From: a bacterium
GTDB taxonomy: Bacteria > Armatimonadota > UBA5829
Assembly: GCA_021371935.1 (NCBI GenBank)
Contig: JAJFVF010000013.1
Span: forward strand, 62,001 to 126,000
Length of the DNA: 64,000 nucleotides
Direction: 5' to 3'
Shown here: positions 5,151 through 38,525 of the stretch, in pieces
How positions within the stretch are numbered: position 1 is the stretch's first letter
Layout of the letters: every line of letters begins with the position of its first letter
Position numbers and translations under genes: made by a program
The notes under the pieces: generated by a model
What the model was told of the DNA's origin: nothing
The model's input: the letters and a program-made list of their open reading frames with translations, nothing else
Database searches by the model: none

Positions 5151-5179
5151 TTGACAAACGTCAAATCTTAGGATATAAA
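5151..5179 (+). promoter_or_regulatory. Sigma-70-type promoter of PEP-CTERM gene
   Basis: TTGACA (5151-5156) and TATAAA (5174-5179) are separated by exactly 17 bases, close to the full consensus. Transcription would begin near 5186 and give a leader of about 80 bases that contains an inverted repeat. Confidence 0.8.
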
Positions 5180-5264: not shown

Positions 5265-5834
5265 ATGTACAGAGTTTTGCTGCCGATCATAATGCTTGTG
5301 CTTGTTGTGGCGGCTGTTCCGGCATTTTCGTTTAGTGCATCGGTTCTTTGTCAGGGTAATATCTGCGGAGGCGGTGGAATTCGCAATTACCAGTATGATG
5401 TCAGCGTGGCTGACGGGCTGATCTATCAGTTCCATGTGGGCACATGTGACCCGAACATTGCGGATTATTCGAACATATTGATGCCTGCTGGATGGAGTTT
5501 CAATATCTACAGCATTCTCGAAGACCATGCGGATAAATTCACACCCCATGGTCAGATATCGTCTGCCGACGGCTATTGCCAGTGGTGCGCGGTCTGGACT
5601 GACACTACGGGTCAGGGTATAGCGAGTGCGACATTCGGCTTCGACAACCCCAACAGTCCGCATGACGTCGGCTGGTTTATCAATTCCAGCAGCGCGGTCG
5701 AGAACTGGTCGATGCCGGTAGGGCTGGGTGATGGTCCGGTCCATGGTCCCACGGTTCCGGAGCCGTCGAGCCTGCTTTCACTGCTAAGCGGCCTTGGCGT
5801 TCTCGGTGGGGTCATTGCTCGGATGAAGAAGTGA
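5265..5834 (+). CDS. PEP-CTERM sorting-domain surface protein
   Basis: A 189-residue secreted protein. It has a signal peptide (MYRVLLPIIMLVLVVAAVPAF...), an unrecognised beta-rich middle and a C-terminal PEP-CTERM tail: VPEPSS, a hydrophobic helix and a basic end (ARMKK). Such tails are cut by exosortase, which anchors or releases proteins into extracellular polymer. ATG 5265 follows GGGAGG and opens the signal peptide. It is a single gene with its own promoter (5151-5179) and a strong terminator (5862-5893). It is one of four PEP-CTERM proteins here; no exosortase gene lies in the window. Confidence 0.88.
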   Translation: MYRVLLPIIMLVLVVAAVPAFSFSASVLCQGNICGGGGIRNYQYDVSVADGLIYQFHVGTCDPNIADYSNILMPAGWSFNIYSILEDHADKFTPHGQISSADGYCQWCAVWTDTTGQGIASATFGFDNPNSPHDVGWFINSSSAVENWSMPVGLGDGPVHGPTVPEPSSLLSLLSGLGVLGGVIARMKK

Positions 5835-5893: not shown

Positions 5894-7097
5894 ATGAGAA
5901 TTTTTTCTTGTCGAACCCATGAACCTTCTCCAGAGCCTTTATCCCCACCAGGCTGGCGCGCTTGATCGCGAACTCTCCATATCTGTCATTGATCGCATCG
6001 AGCGCCTTTAAGAGGTTTTGGCCGCGGGGATCGGTGAACAGGTTCATCTGGTGAGCATTCTTCGCCAGGCTGGAGACACACACGCCTACCAGCCGGATAG
6101 CGCGCCTGTCGGAGTGCTGATCGAAGATCGACATGGCCGCTTGATATATATCGAATCCATCATCGAAGTATCGGCTGAAAGTCTTCCTGTAGCCGGCAAA
6201 ATGCATATCAGCGTATCTGATCACGAGCGTGACAGTCTTTCCGGCGAAACCCTGCTCTCTGAGCCTGCGTCCGACCATCTCCGAAAGCCTCAGCAAGTGG
6301 CGAGCCACGAGGTCGAGGTCACGCGTATTGCGGCTGAGAGTGTAGGAGTGACTCACAGACTTGATGTCCGGCTTGCCGTAATATGGGATTATCGCTGGGT
6401 TATATATGCCGTTGCCCATCCCATGCAGCGCTTCGCCGAGCACCCCGAACTTCAGCTTGAGTATATTCTTGGGCGTCCGACCGAGCTGGCCTGCGGTGGT
6501 GATCCCCATTTTTTCGAGTTGGAGCCTGAGCCTTTCGCCGATGCCATGGAGCTTTTCCACGGGCAGGCTTTCAAGCAGATTTTTGACGTCTTCGTGCTTG
6601 ATCTCAACCAGCCCGTCCGGTTTTTGTATATTAGCGGCGAGCTTGGCAAGCATTATATTCGGCGCAATACCCACAGAGCATGTCAGCCCGAACTCCGCTC
6701 GAATACGCCGTTTTATCGCACGGCCAATTTTCCATGCCCCGCCGAAGCGCTCCTGAGTGTGTGTGACATCCAGGAAGCATTCGTCGATGGAATATATCTC
6801 CATCAGGTCTGTGTAGTCGCCGCAAATATCGAATATACGCCGGGCGGTGTCGGAATACTTTGTAGTGTCTCCGGTCACGATAATCGCATCCGGGCACTTT
6901 TCGATTGCCTGGAAAGTCGCCATTCCCGAGTGGATGCCATATGGCCTGGCCTCATAACTTGCCGCAGCCACGACTGAGCGCTTCGCCAGGCTTCCGCCTA
7001 CCAGCACGGGCTTGCCGCGCAGAGCTGGGTTGCATCTCTGCTCCACATTGGCGAAAAATGCATTCATATCCACAAGTATGATCGTGCGGTCTGTCAT
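5892..7097 (-). CDS. dinB: DNA polymerase IV (Y-family translesion polymerase)
   Basis: A 401-residue protein of normal family length. Catalytic residues are visible: Asp10 in LVDMNAFFANVEQ, with the FF steric-gate region, and Asp105-Glu106 in YSIDECFLDV. Helix-hairpin-helix and little-finger regions follow, and no clear beta-clamp motif stands at the very end. It copies damaged templates during the SOS response. ATG 7097 has AGGA upstream. The gene starts four bases after a small DUF6504-like gene, and both lie behind a promoter with a LexA box (7385-7413), so SOS control is well supported. Confidence 0.95.
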   Translation of the reverse strand: MTDRTIILVDMNAFFANVEQRCNPALRGKPVLVGGSLAKRSVVAAASYEARPYGIHSGMATFQAIEKCPDAIIVTGDTTKYSDTARRIFDICGDYTDLMEIYSIDECFLDVTHTQERFGGAWKIGRAIKRRIRAEFGLTCSVGIAPNIMLAKLAANIQKPDGLVEIKHEDVKNLLESLPVEKLHGIGERLRLQLEKMGITTAGQLGRTPKNILKLKFGVLGEALHGMGNGIYNPAIIPYYGKPDIKSVSHSYTLSRNTRDLDLVARHLLRLSEMVGRRLREQGFAGKTVTLVIRYADMHFAGYRKTFSRYFDDGFDIYQAAMSIFDQHSDRRAIRLVGVCVSSLAKNAHQMNLFTDPRGQNLLKALDAINDRYGEFAIKRASLVGIKALEKVHGFDKKKFS

Positions 7098-11447: not shown

Positions 11448-12316
11448 AATGCTACCCCCAAACCTCTAGCGATCGTTAATGCAAACAGATCATTATTTTC
11501 CCGATGATTATGCCTGTAGCAAAATTCGTCGACATATTGTGGCAAGTGCCGAACACTTACTTTGTGAAATTGCCCAACAATACCACGCTTAAGGAGAGAC
11601 CAAAAACTTTCAATATTATTTGTATGAAGGTCTCCGTCAACGTACCATACCTTGTGATTAACGGTCTCGTGTGGCAAAATCCAACTCATGCGCATGTAGC
11701 CACGATACTCGTCGGTTATTAGTGTAGATTCATTGCGGTTGACGTGTTCTCTAACCAATGCACACAGCGATCGAGATATTAGTTGTTTTGACCTCATGAC
11801 CGCACATCTAACTTCGCCGTTTCGCTCTATCATTCCAACTACTGGAATCTTGTCAGTGCCACGACCACGCTTGTGAGGTTTTCCGTCACCCTTGCGAGGC
11901 TTACCGCCGATATAGGTCTCATCCATCTCAACTATTCCGGTTAGTAATGAGCGTTGATCTGCTTCCGCCATAGCGTTACGTATTCTCATACTTAAATACC
12001 AAGCTGTGTTTCGATGGACATCCAAGTCACGAGCTAATTGACGAGCAGCTATCCCCTTCTTGGCATTGAGGATTAGAGTCAGGGCAAGAAACCACTTTTG
12101 CAGTGGCAGGTGAGTATGGTGGAAGATCGTGCCTACAGTGACACTGAATGACGTATTGCAGTTGTTACAGTGATGGCGATGTTCTTCCGGCAAAGGAGTT
12201 GTGCGATCGGATTTGCAATACGGGCACACAGGAGTGCCGCTCCATCTAACTTGTTCAAGATAGTTAATGCAGTCCGATTCTGTAGGGAATTTCTCATATA
12301 CAGATACGATATTCAA
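11444..12316 (-). CDS. IS1595-family transposase
   Basis: A 290-residue transposase. The N-terminal zinc ribbon has two CxxC pairs (CPYC ... CNNC, about residues 31-55), followed by a helical region with an HTH (ARQLARDLDVHRNTAWYLSM). The catalytic core of the ISXO2-like type has its acidic residues in EMDETYIGG, ITDEYRGY and NNIESFWSLLKRG. No frameshift or stop interrupts it. It catalyses cut-and-paste or copy-paste movement of the element that contains it. Confidence 0.95.
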   Translation of the reverse strand: MNIVSVYEKFPTESDCINYLEQVRWSGTPVCPYCKSDRTTPLPEEHRHHCNNCNTSFSVTVGTIFHHTHLPLQKWFLALTLILNAKKGIAARQLARDLDVHRNTAWYLSMRIRNAMAEADQRSLLTGIVEMDETYIGGKPRKGDGKPHKRGRGTDKIPVVGMIERNGEVRCAVMRSKQLISRSLCALVREHVNRNESTLITDEYRGYMRMSWILPHETVNHKVWYVDGDLHTNNIESFWSLLKRGIVGQFHKVSVRHLPQYVDEFCYRHNHRENNDLFALTIARGLGVAL

Positions 12317-30241: not shown

Positions 30242-30847
30242 CTAGAGCACATGACGCCTTCGCATCTTGCTTATCCCCAGAAGTGCACTGCATATGGTCA
30301 CTAATGACAACGCAGTGGATGGTTCCGGCACCTCAGTCACATTGTCAATTGCGAATTCTTGTCCGCCAATACCAAAAGAGGAAATCGGACCGCTCAGCGT
30401 TAAGCAACCGTGGACATTGCCGGTAAGTGCACTCTGGGTGACGGAAGCATTAACCCCACCAATCTGTACGCCGTCCAAATCCAGCATATTGTAAATTTTC
30501 TGTGTGTCTCCATTAACTTCAACTTTTGTGTAGCCACCATAGTTTCCGAACAACAACGATAGTCCTGAAATACTACCAAAACCGAAGTGAAGCATCACGT
30601 TGCCTGTCCAGGCTTCATTGCCTGATCCACAAGCATATCCATCTGATATTATGGTGCAATGGCCACTCAGGTAAGTGGACGAAAGAGCGTCCAGACTGAT
30701 CTCAATACCATTTGATACAAATGTGTCTCCGACATAATAGTTTGTGTCTGTAACCAAGTCGTCAAAGTCGACTGCTGCTTGTGCGTTTGCCAAGGCTGGA
30801 TATGTTAACAACAGTATTGTCACAACAACAACAAGGTGTACGCGCAT
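30242..30847 (-). CDS. PEP-CTERM sorting-domain surface protein
   Basis: A 201-residue secreted protein with a signal peptide (MRVHLVVVVTILLLTYPALANA). The beta-rich middle contains a pattern (FDDLVTDTNYYVGDTFVSNG) common in PEP-CTERM proteins. The sorting tail is VPEPSTALSL ... KMRRRHVL. ATG 30847 is preferred because GGAGG lies six bases upstream; an ATG four codons earlier has none. The orphan promoter at 30106 points into its antisense strand. The exosortase that would process it is outside the window. Confidence 0.88.
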   Translation of the reverse strand: MRVHLVVVVTILLLTYPALANAQAAVDFDDLVTDTNYYVGDTFVSNGIEISLDALSSTYLSGHCTIISDGYACGSGNEAWTGNVMLHFGFGSISGLSLLFGNYGGYTKVEVNGDTQKIYNMLDLDGVQIGGVNASVTQSALTGNVHGCLTLSGPISSFGIGGQEFAIDNVTEVPEPSTALSLVTICSALLGISKMRRRHVL

Positions 30848-32517: not shown

Positions 32518-35500
32518 CTAGTAAACCACTATATCGTCTTGCTCCCTGGGCAGTATTGCGCGGCACACTGCGCCGGATATCAACTCGCACGAGACTATTC
32601 CGGTCACGGACACATAATCTCCCACCGCTGGCTCTGAAAGAGAACCGGATGTGACCCTGATAGTCGTGCCGGAACGGCTTTCGATATAGAAATATGTGGA
32701 TGAGGTGGATGTTACTTCGCCCCATGTGGTTGCCAGCAGTCCGATGTTGTTTGCGCCGTATGCGCCGGTGATTCCCGGTGTCTGAGCATTAAGCGCAGCG
32801 CCGCCCAGATAGTCGCCTCGAATTCCAAGCGGGGCAGGGGGATCATCAGTCGTGCCTAGATTGTAGAGTTCCGTGCAGATGATCTGGCGCTCACCGTCGG
32901 ATATCGATATGGGACCGATAACATTCACCAGACTGTCGCGAGTAATGGCCGCATCAGATATCACTCTAATCCCGCTCACCCTGTCGAGGTCCTCGATATA
33001 GAAGTAGCCTGAGAATGCACCAGTTACGGCTTTGTCTGCAAGTGAGACCGTTGTCCCGGCAGACAGACTCTTTGCCTCCGCGATTGTGTCCACTTCCTGA
33101 GCGGCTTGATCCTGCAATGTGACTGCGCATACGCCGTCGGAGTAATTGTATAGCCGTGAATATGTCATAAAGCCCTGGCTGCCTGAGTAGAATATCCTTG
33201 GTGCCAACTGCGGGATCAGGTTCGATACGAGCGCGATCTTCGGTGATGAAGACACTACACCGGTCGAATCGACAGTGGTGTAATATATGTCAGAGTTTGC
33301 TGAATCTGATGAGCGGTAGTCTTCCCATACGACTCTATATATCGACCCGTCCCAGCAAGCGCTCGGCTTGGATTTTGTCTTGGTCCCACTGTCGATACAA
33401 AGGCCGGAGGTGTCGAGGGCCGAGCCTGTTGTGGAGACCCTACACCCCGATATTCTGTTGATGTCCGACCATGTGACGAAATAATTGCCGCCGCCATAGC
33501 ATACGCTGGGTGTCGTTTCACTGTAAGTTATCTGCGGCATGGCGATTCCACCTGAGTCCTGCACGGTTCCCGAGGAGGTCACGCGCGTGCCGTATATCCG
33601 CGCTGACGAGCGGTAATCCTCCCAAACCACAAAGTAATTTGTGCCGTTTGAGGCGGTATAAGGGTTCAATTGGCTGCCGGTGGAGGTGCAGATTGTCGCG
33701 TTTGTAACTGTGCCGCTGGACGATACCACGGCGCCGTATATATCAGTATAGTAATTAGGCGAGACAGCCGATCTGGAATCCTCCCATGCCACAAAGAAGC
33801 TGGTTCCGTTGGATGTCGCACATGGGTCTGCTTGATCTTCCGAGGCCACAGATATTGAAAATGGTGATATGCTCAGTTTGTTAAGATTGGAATCCAAAAA
33901 CCAACCGCGAATATCCCATTCGGTGGATGAATATGTCTCATTGCCCGACCATACCACAAGATATTTTGTTCCGTTCCATGCTATCGACGGTTCGACCTGG
34001 TCGCCGTAATATGTGGAAGTGATATTTACTGGCTCGTCACACAGCGGCTCGCCATCATGAGATATCCTTGCAGCCATAATATCGCAGCTGCCGTTTACGC
34101 TTTGGGACCATACGACTGCGTATTCACTGCCATTATCGGCCACGGAGTAGTCATTCTCATCGTCGAGCGCCATGGATGTCGTATTACCTGCAGCGTTTTG
34201 CACCGATCCGCCGTTGGTTACGAGTGTGGTCAGCGCATCCGAGTCCGTCACGCTGAAACTGCTCCATCCCGCAACAAACGAGCTGTTTAATCCTGCCGCA
34301 CATCCACATGTCGCGCCCGCCATACCGGTCGATATTGCAATACCCGAAGCGTCGAGGACTGTGCCGCTTGTGTCGAGCCTGGCTCCGCGCATGGTCCTGT
34401 CCGAGCCCTTAGCGCGCCATAAGGCCAGCAGCCTGCTGCCATTATATTCGACACAGGGCATCTCCTCATCGCCGGACTGAGTAGATATCGCAATGCCGCC
34501 TTTGTCCAGAACGGAGGCTGCTGAACTTACCCTTGCTCCATATACATCGGACTCATCGTCTGAGTTTCTGTAATCTTCCCAGACGACCATGCATGTGGTG
34601 CCCATGCCACAGATACGCGGGTTCATCTGGATTCCCGGCGCTCCGGTCGACCCGGTCGACGTGCATGAGATCAGCACATCCCCCGTTAAACGGACGCCGA
34701 GCCGTGATACCCTGCAGCCGTATATGTCGGTATTGCTCGATGAATAATTTCTATAATCGCGCCAGACGACAATATAGTTGGTCCCGTTGTATGCCACATC
34801 CGGCATCTCGTCATTGTTGGCGGTCGTGGAGATGCCGTATCTTCTGCTAATAGTCCCGTCCGAGTTGACCTTGCAGCCATACACATCCAGCGAGGTGCTG
34901 ATTGTGTCCTGCCAGACCACCAGCCAGCTGCTCATGTCCGATGCAACTTTAGGGTAATACTGATTGGCGGTCGATCCAGACAGAAGAATTCCCTGAGGAT
35001 CGAGCACTTCGCCGTTTGGTCGGACCCTGCAGCCGTATATGTGCTGTAGAGAATTCCGCCTATCCGCCCAGACCACAAGATATTCGGTGCCGTTCCAGGC
35101 GACATCCGGTGTAAGTTGTTTGCCCGAGGATGTGGATATCGGTATGCCGAGCACATCGATAATTTCGCCGCTCGAACTGATCCTGCAGCCGAATATGTCC
35201 GAATCATCGGGACCACGTGTGTCCGACCAGACTGCAAGGTAGCCATTACTGCCCGCAGCAATGCTCATTGATTCCTGAGTTCCCGGCGCAGCGCCGTATG
35301 TCGGGCAGACCAGTGTTTCATTGCCGACAACAGGGTCCACCTGTATCGGGAATTTTGCGCTGGATATAAAATTGTAAGGGATACATATTTTCAGACTATT
35401 GCCGCTGATTTGTGGAAGACACGCGAACTTTTTACCTGCACTGTCTATCACTGTGACCCTGCCGTAAGTAAGCGCCACATGACCATTTTTATCGGTAAAG

Positions 35501-35901
35501 ATTATGCCGAAAGGTGAGGTTCGTGGAGTGTGTGGGGAATATATCTCGCCTTCGATAATAACGTCGCCTATACTCTTCGGCTTGTAATTTATGACCCATG
35601 TCTGCTCCACGCCCTTATCCAGAGCGCTGTAGCTTTCGGATATGATATTGCCGTAATAATAGCAGACTGCATCATGCGCAGTTTTTACTTCAGGATCGCC
35701 TTTGAAGATAATCCGCTTTGCGCCCAACTGCAGGCTATGGAATGCGTATTTGAAATCAGCATTACGCGATGATCTGGAAAGATATCGAAACTCACCATTC
35801 GAAAATTCGGCACTGTAGCATTTGTGTTTAAATGACTGAACTGCTTGTGCTTGAGTGTTGCACAGACAGACAATTGTGAGAAGCAGGGTTAATCGCAACA
35901 T
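32518..35901 (-). CDS. Secreted 14-unit beta-propeller-type repeat protein with OB-fold-like C-terminus
   Basis: A 1127-residue exported protein. After a signal peptide (MLRLTLLLTIVCLCNTQAQA) and a domain of about 190 residues, I count 14 tandem units. Each has a core like WNGTEYLVVWADRR followed by DIYGCRVS-type and GIxIS-type segments, 50-60 residues apart. The units probably form one or two propellers. The last 200 residues hold two OB-fold-like units (YFYIEDLDRVSGIRV and YFYIESRSGTTIRV). ATG 35901 follows AAGGAGG by 11 bases. It probably binds polymer or matrix outside the cell; the ligand is unknown. Confidence 0.8.
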   Translation of the reverse strand: MLRLTLLLTIVCLCNTQAQAVQSFKHKCYSAEFSNGEFRYLSRSSRNADFKYAFHSLQLGAKRIIFKGDPEVKTAHDAVCYYYGNIISESYSALDKGVEQTWVINYKPKSIGDVIIEGEIYSPHTPRTSPFGIIFTDKNGHVALTYGRVTVIDSAGKKFACLPQISGNSLKICIPYNFISSAKFPIQVDPVVGNETLVCPTYGAAPGTQESMSIAAGSNGYLAVWSDTRGPDDSDIFGCRISSSGEIIDVLGIPISTSSGKQLTPDVAWNGTEYLVVWADRRNSLQHIYGCRVRPNGEVLDPQGILLSGSTANQYYPKVASDMSSWLVVWQDTISTSLDVYGCKVNSDGTISRRYGISTTANNDEMPDVAYNGTNYIVVWRDYRNYSSSNTDIYGCRVSRLGVRLTGDVLISCTSTGSTGAPGIQMNPRICGMGTTCMVVWEDYRNSDDESDVYGARVSSAASVLDKGGIAISTQSGDEEMPCVEYNGSRLLALWRAKGSDRTMRGARLDTSGTVLDASGIAISTGMAGATCGCAAGLNSSFVAGWSSFSVTDSDALTTLVTNGGSVQNAAGNTTSMALDDENDYSVADNGSEYAVVWSQSVNGSCDIMAARISHDGEPLCDEPVNITSTYYGDQVEPSIAWNGTKYLVVWSGNETYSSTEWDIRGWFLDSNLNKLSISPFSISVASEDQADPCATSNGTSFFVAWEDSRSAVSPNYYTDIYGAVVSSSGTVTNATICTSTGSQLNPYTASNGTNYFVVWEDYRSSARIYGTRVTSSGTVQDSGGIAMPQITYSETTPSVCYGGGNYFVTWSDINRISGCRVSTTGSALDTSGLCIDSGTKTKSKPSACWDGSIYRVVWEDYRSSDSANSDIYYTTVDSTGVVSSSPKIALVSNLIPQLAPRIFYSGSQGFMTYSRLYNYSDGVCAVTLQDQAAQEVDTIAEAKSLSAGTTVSLADKAVTGAFSGYFYIEDLDRVSGIRVISDAAITRDSLVNVIGPISISDGERQIICTELYNLGTTDDPPAPLGIRGDYLGGAALNAQTPGITGAYGANNIGLLATTWGEVTSTSSTYFYIESRSGTTIRVTSGSLSEPAVGDYVSVTGIVSCELISGAVCRAILPREQDDIVVY

Positions 35902-36229
35902 AGGTCTTGTGTCCTCCTTTGCCGTTGGGCTTGAGGGCGTGACATTACGCCCGGCTGCCGATGCCACATCGAAGTATACCCGTCTGCCTGCCATGAAAAC
36001 CTGAGTTATGAAATTATTATTTAGTACGGTAATTAAGCTCAACATTTATTGTGCATGAGTTTATATTAAACTACGCCATTTATGCCAGCTCAGGCGAAAT
36101 ATGGCACGCATCTTGCACGTCATAAGGCAAGTGAGTAGGATGTATGACAGGTGCATTCGCTTATTGATGGGCCAGCACATAATCGTTTGAATTCCTGACA
36201 GCTCAGCAGCCAAAGGAGGGCGATGTCTG
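35902..36229. other. 328-base divergent intergenic region
   Basis: It holds the leader of the repeat-protein gene (minus strand) and the sigma-54 promoter of the PEP-CTERM gene (36102-36117). The A/T-rich part 36005-36070 could hold minus-strand promoter elements, but none is close to consensus. No repeat-family member is visible here. Confidence 0.5.
36102..36117 (+). promoter_or_regulatory. Sigma-54 (RpoN) promoter of PEP-CTERM gene
   Basis: TGGCACGCATCTTGCA matches the -24/-12 consensus TGGCACG-N4-TTGCA at every fixed position, with GG (36103-36104) and GC (36115-36116) ten bases apart. Transcription would begin near 36128, leaving about 100 bases of leader. An enhancer-binding protein site should lie upstream. 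Confidence 0.8.
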
Positions 36230-36745
36230 ATGCGAGCGTTAATTATCGCCGCGATATTGATTGTCTGCTGCGGTCCGGCGATGTGCCAGGCAATAGGCGC
36301 ACAGCAATATAGTGCACTTGTTATGGGACAGCCGGTAGATATAGGTGACCCGAGCGCATGGGTCTACACACTGACAAACACAAGCGCGAGCGCAAACTAT
36401 ACAATCTGGCTCCTTGCGATCGAAGTTGACGAATCGACGGACGTTCTCAATGTGTCTTCACCGTCGGGATGGGCATGTGACACCAGCGTGCCTCACTTCA
36501 TCAGTTGGATGTATGTGACGAATGAGCTATACGCTGGGGAGAGTGAGAATGGGTTCCAGGCGGAGTATAGTGCTGCGCCTGCATATCAGTCATGGACAGT
36601 AATGTTCAATAACATCGATAATCCGGGTGAAAGCCCGAGTGAGTTCGGCGTGCTGGAGACGGCTGTGCCGGAACCTGCTAGTATGATTGCTATGTTGGTG
36701 GGGATTACATCCCTTGTCGGAGTAAAGATGCGAAGGCGAGTCTAG
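36230..36745 (+). CDS. PEP-CTERM sorting-domain surface protein (sigma-54 controlled)
   Basis: A 171-residue secreted protein with a signal peptide (MRALIIAAILIVCCGPAMCQA), a short beta-rich domain and the sorting tail VPEPASMIAMLVG ... KMRRRV. ATG 36230 has AAGGAGGG nine bases upstream; ATG 36223 is in another frame. Its promoter is of the sigma-54 type, unlike two of the other PEP-CTERM genes, whose promoters are of the sigma-70 type. A terminator follows at once, so it is monocistronic. Confidence 0.88.
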   Translation: MRALIIAAILIVCCGPAMCQAIGAQQYSALVMGQPVDIGDPSAWVYTLTNTSASANYTIWLLAIEVDESTDVLNVSSPSGWACDTSVPHFISWMYVTNELYAGESENGFQAEYSAAPAYQSWTVMFNNIDNPGESPSEFGVLETAVPEPASMIAMLVGITSLVGVKMRRRV

Positions 36746-37841: not shown

Positions 37842-38447
37842 TTATGCCTTCTTGCGTCGGGCTATGCTAAATCCACAAGCCAATATGCCGCTCATAATGA
37901 CTATGATTGATGACGGTTCGGGAACAGTTGCATCCAGAATAAGTTTTGCCGAAGAAAGGATGCCATATGGGTTCGTGCCCGTAGCGCCGCCTGCGATATT
38001 CGATGGCACAAATTCCACATAAATAGTACCTTTGCCATCCAAGAGAAAGTCCCAGGGCACTACATTGTATCTGTCGAACGGCTCAAAAGCATCGGTTTGT
38101 GAAAAGCTCTCACAACTTGGGTATGTTGTTGTGCCCAGTGTAGATGTGCCTGCATCCCAAGCCGTGCTGCTGCTGGGTCCATTTATTCCTATATAAAACA
38201 TACCGCCCCAAGGGCCGCTGAAACCTTCCGTCAAATTATAGTAGTATCCGGGATAAACCGCGCCGGACCACTCAATACTCATGCCGGATATGCTAGTAAA
38301 CTCCCGGCCAAAGTCAATGTTGAAATATCTGGCAGACCCATAATAATATCCTGCTGCGGGGATCGTCAGTTCATATGTTCCTGCATATGCAATCCCGACA
38401 CTGCAGGCAATAAGCAGTAACACTGCAACTAACATCATTTTTCTCAT
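37842..38447 (-). CDS. PEP-CTERM sorting-domain surface protein
   Basis: A 201-residue secreted protein with a signal peptide (MRKMMLVAVLLLIACSVGIAYA) and an aromatic-rich beta domain (AAGYYYGSARYFNIDFG). The sorting tail is VPEPSSIIVIMSG ... ARRKKA. A GGAAGGGG ribosome site precedes ATG 38447. It has its own consensus sigma-70 promoter (38497-38525) and terminator (37781-37812). It is one of four exosortase substrates here. Confidence 0.88.
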   Translation of the reverse strand: MRKMMLVAVLLLIACSVGIAYAGTYELTIPAAGYYYGSARYFNIDFGREFTSISGMSIEWSGAVYPGYYYNLTEGFSGPWGGMFYIGINGPSSSTAWDAGTSTLGTTTYPSCESFSQTDAFEPFDRYNVVPWDFLLDGKGTIYVEFVPSNIAGGATGTNPYGILSSAKLILDATVPEPSSIIVIMSGILACGFSIARRKKA

Positions 38448-38496: not shown

Positions 38497-38525
38497 AATA
38501 TATATTATTAGTGCTTGGTTGTCAA
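38497..38525 (-). promoter_or_regulatory. Sigma-70-type promoter of PEP-CTERM gene
   Basis: On the minus strand TTGACA (38525-38520), a 17-base spacer and TATATT (38502-38497). Transcription would start near 38490, about 40 bases before the ATG. Confidence 0.8.

Follow-up and report, generated by a model that had tools for sequence, protein, structure and literature searches.

A bacterium of the Armatimonadota appears to turn on one group of its surface proteins through sigma-54 promoters and an activator without an HTH, unlike the Proteobacteria. Within the window, the 64-kb stretch of DNA analysed here (C13:62001-126000 of genome G000, which comprises 3.54 Mb in 22 contigs), a -24/-12 box precedes a PEP-CTERM gene, and a single explanation that joins this sigma-54 promoter, the sigma factor RpoN1, an HTH-less activator working without an enhancer and a scattered PEP-CTERM regulon is considered likely.

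The box TGGCACGCATCTTGCA lies at 36102-36117 on the plus strand, exactly where the preliminary description had placed a full match to TGGCACG-N4-TTGCA, with GG at 36103-36104, GC at 36115-36116 and hence GG-N10-GC spacing; it contains the GG-N10-GC core as well as the TGGCACG-N4-TTGCW consensus, and the downstream ATG stands at 36230. No other exact match occurs in the window, and sites with up to two mismatches are not enriched there (5 observed vs 11.8 expected), so that only the exact match is regarded as notable, and the near matches with one or two mismatches were dropped as extra promoters, the one at 6292-6307 being located inside a long ORF. The gene behind the box (36230-36745, plus strand) encodes a PEP-CTERM protein of 171 aa, recognised by profile matches and orthologues, with an N-terminal signal-like stretch identified by eye. 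Its C-terminal end combines a PEP motif, a hydrophobic stretch and a basic end (VPEPASMIAML...RRRV, encoded at 36662-36739, plus strand), as expected for the family, and passes the cut-offs of both PEP-CTERM profiles, with 21.0 bits vs 20.7 for Pfam and 19.6 vs 16 for TIGR02595. Orthologues with 43-79% identity were found in G004, G001, G005, G002 and G013.

Alignment of the six orthologous upstream regions, the window's own included, revealed that the box is kept in all of them, in five as an exact match and in one with the GG/GC core. Four relatives read TGGCACG-TATC-TTGCA, while the site of G002, TGGCATCTATCTTGCA, retains GG and GC; more distant homologues of the gene in G017 and G020 have exact boxes too. 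Judged from these sequences, the box very probably serves as a functional sigma-54 promoter for the gene at 36230-36745, and transcription would be predicted to start around 36128, 12 bases past the GC. The same alignment also showed conservation of the ribosome-binding site AAGGAGGG (36213-36220, plus strand), itself recognised by sequence, of a CTCAGGCG block immediately 5' of the box (36089-36096, plus strand) and of a TATACCC...AAAACC block about 100-130 bases 5' of it (35970-36001). The latter may be a regulator site of the PEP-CTERM gene or of the divergent gene on the minus strand (32518-35901), which encodes a secreted repeat protein without any Pfam family above its cut-off. The first-ATG ORF of this divergent gene extends to 36045, and a start near 35901, followed by a signal peptide, appears likelier by eye. 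Between box and gene, a 5'-UTR block TGTATGACAG...CTTATTGATGGGCCAGCA (36141-36177, plus strand) is strongly conserved in five of the six orthologues and lost in G002. No conserved RNA fold was found in it (consensus fold -1.4 kcal/mol, z-score -0.11), and an RNA switch in the 5'-UTR was rejected, there being no fold support and no Rfam match in 20 loci besides a weak one to RF02278.

Other PEP-CTERM candidates in the window are found at 5751-5828 (plus strand), at 37854-37928 (minus strand) and, with a weak score of 17.7 bits, at 30254-30331 (minus strand). They number three, not the two for which sigma-70 promoters at 5151 and 38497 had initially been described; the promoters themselves hold up as consensus matches only. 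The neighbouring PEP-CTERM gene (37842-38447, minus strand), which has no sigma-54 box, is preceded by a sigma-70-like TTGACA-17-TATATT (38525-38497, minus strand) that ends at 38497 and agrees with the consensus at 11/12 positions, and a TTGACA-17-TATAAA near 5151 was recognised by eye, the hexamer scan that passed over it having demanded T at the last position.

Across the whole genome, TGGCACGNNNNTTGCW has eight exact matches, all ending in TTGCA, where about 0.4 would be expected from the base composition of the window, and the reversed control pattern (TTGCA version) has none in the same genome. Seven of these eight boxes (C2:367635, C9:8195, C9:63511, C11:28728, C13:98102, which is that of the window, C16:3343 and C18:7057) stand within 190 bases 5' of a gene whose product has a PEP-CTERM end. 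The chance of such an outcome is 2e-20, or 6e-14 if sites are restricted to 12% of the genome, as computed with 41 genes, 200 bases and that 12% as an assumed intergenic share. Among the seven proteins, five pass the Pfam cut-off, one passes that of TIGR02595 only and one is weak; the end of C9:7134 scores 15.8 bits with Pfam and 16.4 with TIGR02595 (cut-off 16), and that of the weak one (C9:63511) 14.6 bits, below the cut-off of 20.7, the protein being included on the grounds that its orthologues retain an end of this kind.

The reverse count started from 40 PEP-CTERM genes, that is, 42 PF07589 matches minus the last two (12.6 and 10.2 bits), which were not PEP-CTERM by eye. Nine of them have a same-strand upstream box that deviates from the motif at no more than one position (six exact, three with one mismatch), and a 424-aa PEP-CTERM protein outside this set has one as well; on the opposite strand, none of the 40 upstream regions contains a box even with up to two mismatches. 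The distribution is nearly two-peaked, most PEP-CTERM genes having either a near-perfect box or nothing close. The proposal that the motif recurs before other PEP-CTERM genes is thus borne out, as is, at the sequence level, the proposed split of these genes between sigma-54 and other promoters, with only about a quarter of them carrying a box and most lacking it. Of the 58 one-mismatch sites in the genome, the majority are located within ORFs; of the remainder, three stand before PEP-CTERM genes, and others before a phosphofructokinase gene, a flagellar rod gene and the gene of a CAP-domain protein. Two exosortase genes of the EpsH family (202 and 171 bits vs a cut-off of 25.7) are present in the genome.

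In relatives, exact sites precede a PEP-CTERM gene by rule in 28 of 62 cases in a first set and in 16 of 30 in a second, both sets having been selected from site listings rather than comprising all sites of all genomes, and about half of the examined sites have no recognisable PEP-CTERM gene downstream. In the first set, five sites with less than 500 bases downstream (L212, L215, L217, L230 and L248) were scored as misses, as were L218 and L223, whose products look PEP-CTERM-like at their ends by eye. A slightly broader rule was applied to the second set. Here, L323 leaves room for only 73 bases, the PEP-CTERM assignment of L330 was made solely by eye, and L332 corresponds to the G004 orthologue that the first set had already included; L174 and L311 share one gene, L184 was also used in the small-RNA alignment described below, and the sites of G026 nearly duplicate those of G027.

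The boxes follow the sigma factor. The preliminary description had asked for rpoN, and it is present in G000 as two genes, whose products are both intact, with AID, CBD and DBD domains; RpoN2 shares 82% identity with RpoN2 of 'Armatimonadetes bacterium UBA5829', by which G000 is assigned to the Armatimonadota. Among 41 genomes, exact boxes occur in 32 of the 33 with RpoN and in one of the eight without (Fisher P 2.8e-6, a value that is too small because the genomes are related). One exception, G029, has RpoN and 30 PEP-CTERM matches and no exact box; the other, G025, has boxes in a 69% complete genome in which RpoN was not found. As for the remaining RpoN-less genomes, PEP-CTERM matches are absent from G008, G012, G014, G024 and G040, and G009 and G037 have 30 and 12 such matches, respectively, with no exact box. 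G012 was counted as RpoN-less on account of a mere remnant of the gene with two TAA stops (C43:31741-31884). A 22-row RpoN tree separates RpoN1 from RpoN2 with 100/100 support and places the single-copy RpoN of G017, G018, G019, G020, G021 and G023 within the RpoN1 clade.

PF00158 has seven matches in G000, two of which, at 245 and 240 bits, have the scores of true sigma-54 activators, the others reaching at most 32. One of the two activators, encoded at C6:76746-77984, is a protein of 413 aa with a receiver, an AAA+ domain with a GSFTGA loop and a lid, and Pfam finds no HTH (no HTH_8) in it. This make-up, a receiver and an AAA+ domain with the GxFTGA loop and no C-terminal HTH, is that of the type Ic activators resembling CtcC and FlgR, the latter having a flagellar role. 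Directly 5' of the gene, a GAF-PAS histidine kinase of 1092 codons is encoded, and a kinase motif was found upstream in 16 of 23 loci of the HTH-less activator. At a search threshold of E <= 1e-40, which a very divergent activator could escape, the HTH-less activator was found in 23 of the 28 genomes of the class, namely all 22 with RpoN plus G025; the five without it (G008, G009, G012, G014 and G024) have no intact RpoN and no exact box. The protein ends soon after the lid domain in 23/23 loci, its terminus lying 32-40 residues past the start of RELEN in 21 of them; those of G016 and G018 read RQLEN and likewise have no HTH.

The proposed mechanism would thus start with a holoenzyme containing RpoN1 (C22:110922), which would transcribe the PEP-CTERM gene from the box once opened by the HTH-less activator, itself presumably phosphorylated by the kinase encoded just 5'. 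Since this activator has no DNA-binding part, it would work from solution, with no enhancer, and the choice of targets would rest on the box alone. Activation from solution, as in Chlamydia CtcC, would fit the outcome of k-mer counts against shuffles in the 200 bases 5' of 40 sigma-54 PEP-CTERM promoters, which revealed no common enhancer. At k=6 the best count was 15 vs a shuffle maximum of 16; AAACCTG at k=7 (9 vs 8) and AGCACAAG at k=8 (7 vs 5, on account of a single gene family) exceeded the shuffles, and k-mers that did so are those carried by orthologue groups. The predicted outcome would be a scattered sigma-54 regulon of about 10 of the 41 PEP-CTERM genes, together with one small RNA and a few further genes.

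The second activator, C22:123760, has a receiver, an AAA+ domain and a Fis HTH, with a kinase gene adjacent, and could in principle serve the same sigma-54 promoter together with RpoN1 or RpoN2 by way of an enhancer, for which the TATACCC...AAAACC block would be a candidate. Its domain composition fits such a role, as does the conservation of upstream blocks among the orthologues, where both TATACCC...AAAACC and CTCAGGCG could be enhancers; moreover, ATACCC occurs in 14 of the 40 sigma-54 PEP-CTERM upstream regions. However, 14 is under the shuffle maximum of 16 at k=6, and many of these regions are orthologues, so the status of ATACCC as a common enhancer is not supported. G018, G019, G020, G021 and G023 have neither this activator nor RpoN2, and yet, with one RpoN of the RpoN1 clade and the HTH-less protein as their one activator, they possess boxes that precede PEP-CTERM genes (in G018 by eye); in G020, 6 of 19 exact sites do so by rule, and in G019 three of the four examined, two of these before one gene. 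RpoN2 and the Fis-type activator are therefore dispensable for this promoter class, and control of the window's gene by the latter is regarded as improbable. The two RpoN genes of G000 lie 22 kb apart (C22:110922-133887), with chemotaxis genes, the Fis-type activator and the activator's kinase near RpoN2; downstream of the activator follow chemotaxis and flagellar-switch-like genes (the unscanned ones named by eye) and RpoN2. RpoN2 and the Fis-type activator, which are patchily distributed over the class, probably form a separate module linked to motility.

Canonical PrsK/PrsR control, the system that had been invoked for the window at the outset, shares the logic of a sigma-54 box before PEP-CTERM genes and a two-component pair, as presented in PMC1569441 (Haft et al. 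2006). There, the sigma-54 motif is described as restricted, among PEP-CTERM species, to Proteobacteria, together with PrsR, PrsK and PrsT; the box stands before 99 of 167 proteobacterial PEP-CTERM genes, and a 17-base enhancer, motif 1, which ends in TTTACA, lies about 63 bases 5' of it. In G000, however, the PrsR profile TIGR02915 (cut-off 502.6) gives 420.9 and 367.1 bits for the only two sigma-54 activators, and the two kinases that neighbour them, on which the PrsK profile TIGR02916 was scored, reach 91.8 and 104.1 bits vs a cut-off of 300. Neither is TTTACA common to the 40 upstream regions by eye, a comparison confined to the end of motif 1, and the favoured C6 activator is without the Fis domain described for PrsR. 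PrsK/PrsR control is accordingly held to be very improbable here, and the co-occurrence of RpoN1 with the HTH-less activator suggests that these would take its place. An unused box, being a chance match or another protein's site, with the gene driven by sigma-70 hexamers further upstream (e.g. TCAACA-17-TATATT at 36039-36067, 9/12 matches), is given hardly any credence: conservation is poor where these hexamers lie, in contrast to the box, RpoN and the box disappear together, and seven of the eight exact sites in G000 precede PEP-CTERM genes.

Control by RpoN1 and the HTH-less activator can be set beside two known systems. The likeness to the proteobacterial PrsK/PrsR promoters consists in a -24/-12 box before many PEP-CTERM genes and in the involvement of RpoN, and for Aquincola PMC9850573 reports that pepA is RpoN1-dependent, with a mapped start beside TGGCAC and CTGCTT. 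The proteobacterial system relies on the motif 1 enhancer and PrsR, whereas here, in another phylum, no shared enhancer was found, no PrsR or PrsK is recognised by cut-off and the activator is HTH-less. A receiver and AAA+ activator without a DNA-binding domain, serving a sigma-54 regulon, is shared with Chlamydia CtcB/CtcC and Helicobacter FlgR, PMC7482065 and PMC3162934 describing CtcC, whose regulon consists of membrane and secretion genes, and FlgR, a type Ic activator, as lacking this domain. In contrast to the membrane and secretion genes given there for CtcC, the targets predicted here are PEP-CTERM surface proteins and small RNAs. Titles and abstract openings in the open-licence literature contained no PEP-CTERM sigma-54 promoters outside the Proteobacteria, an absence limited to that material, and PMC12316311, on sigma-54 regulons, mentions neither PEP-CTERM nor Armatimonad. 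The recurrence of this promoter logic outside the Proteobacteria, with an activator of another kind, suggests more than one route to tight sigma-54 control of exosortase substrates. In addition, the five relatives with a single activator provide a clear-cut example, found in nature, of a sigma-54 regulon that spans the chromosome under one activator without a DNA-binding domain, for which specificity would have to sit in the core promoter.

Boxes also precede a small RNA in many relatives, with a layout of box, short hairpin, CUCCUUCC stretch and intrinsic terminator. Its single copy in G000 lies at C2:86008-86069 before pfkA (L011), further loci are L201, L242, L181, L190, L231 and L240, and three tandem copies occur in G002 as well as in G020. 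At E <= 0.01, a model built from 13 rows and covering the box plus 50 bases matches 23 of the 41 genomes, a count that includes the training genomes. It has no match in the five class members without intact RpoN, an absence that is not independent of the box count because the model includes the box; no match was obtained either in G006 and G010, which have RpoN, and RpoN-less G037 yields a single weak match without the box part. A match in the window itself (11484-11529, 13.1 bits) was dropped, as it shows no full -24/-12 box by eye. In the Rfam comparison, the L229 small RNA of a relative scored 35.1 bits (E 0.002) against RF02278 (Betaproteobacteria_toxic_sRNA), under the gathering cut-off of 50, and the other 19 loci gave no match; the likeness to this family is thus confined to L229 and below the curated cut-off. 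That the CUCCUUCC small RNA is a translational regulator is a guess. A wider reading, for and against which the arguments appear evenly balanced, holds that sigma-54 control of PEP-CTERM genes in this class may have arisen separately from PrsR, with one HTH-less activator and RpoN1 governing an enhancer-free genome-wide regulon that includes the often tandem, anti-Shine-Dalgarno-like CUCCUUCC small RNAs, so that the switching on of surface proteins would be coupled to translational control.

Several boxes stand before genes of other kinds. One-mismatch boxes precede the flagellar rod gene (C19:160002, L138), the gene of the CAP-domain secreted protein (C2:297081, L017) and that of a receiver-PilZ protein (C2:292313, L016), and boxes before similar CAP-type proteins, recognised by eye, recur in G002 and G011. 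Downstream of the eighth exact box of G000 (C7:89742, L004) is an ORF of 40 codons that has a good ribosome site, and G001 has a similar one behind a box (L198), the products of 40-41 codons in the two genomes beginning with MIKVRIRI... and MMIKVNIRV..., and a site in G004 (C58:19852) has box letters identical to those at C7:89742.
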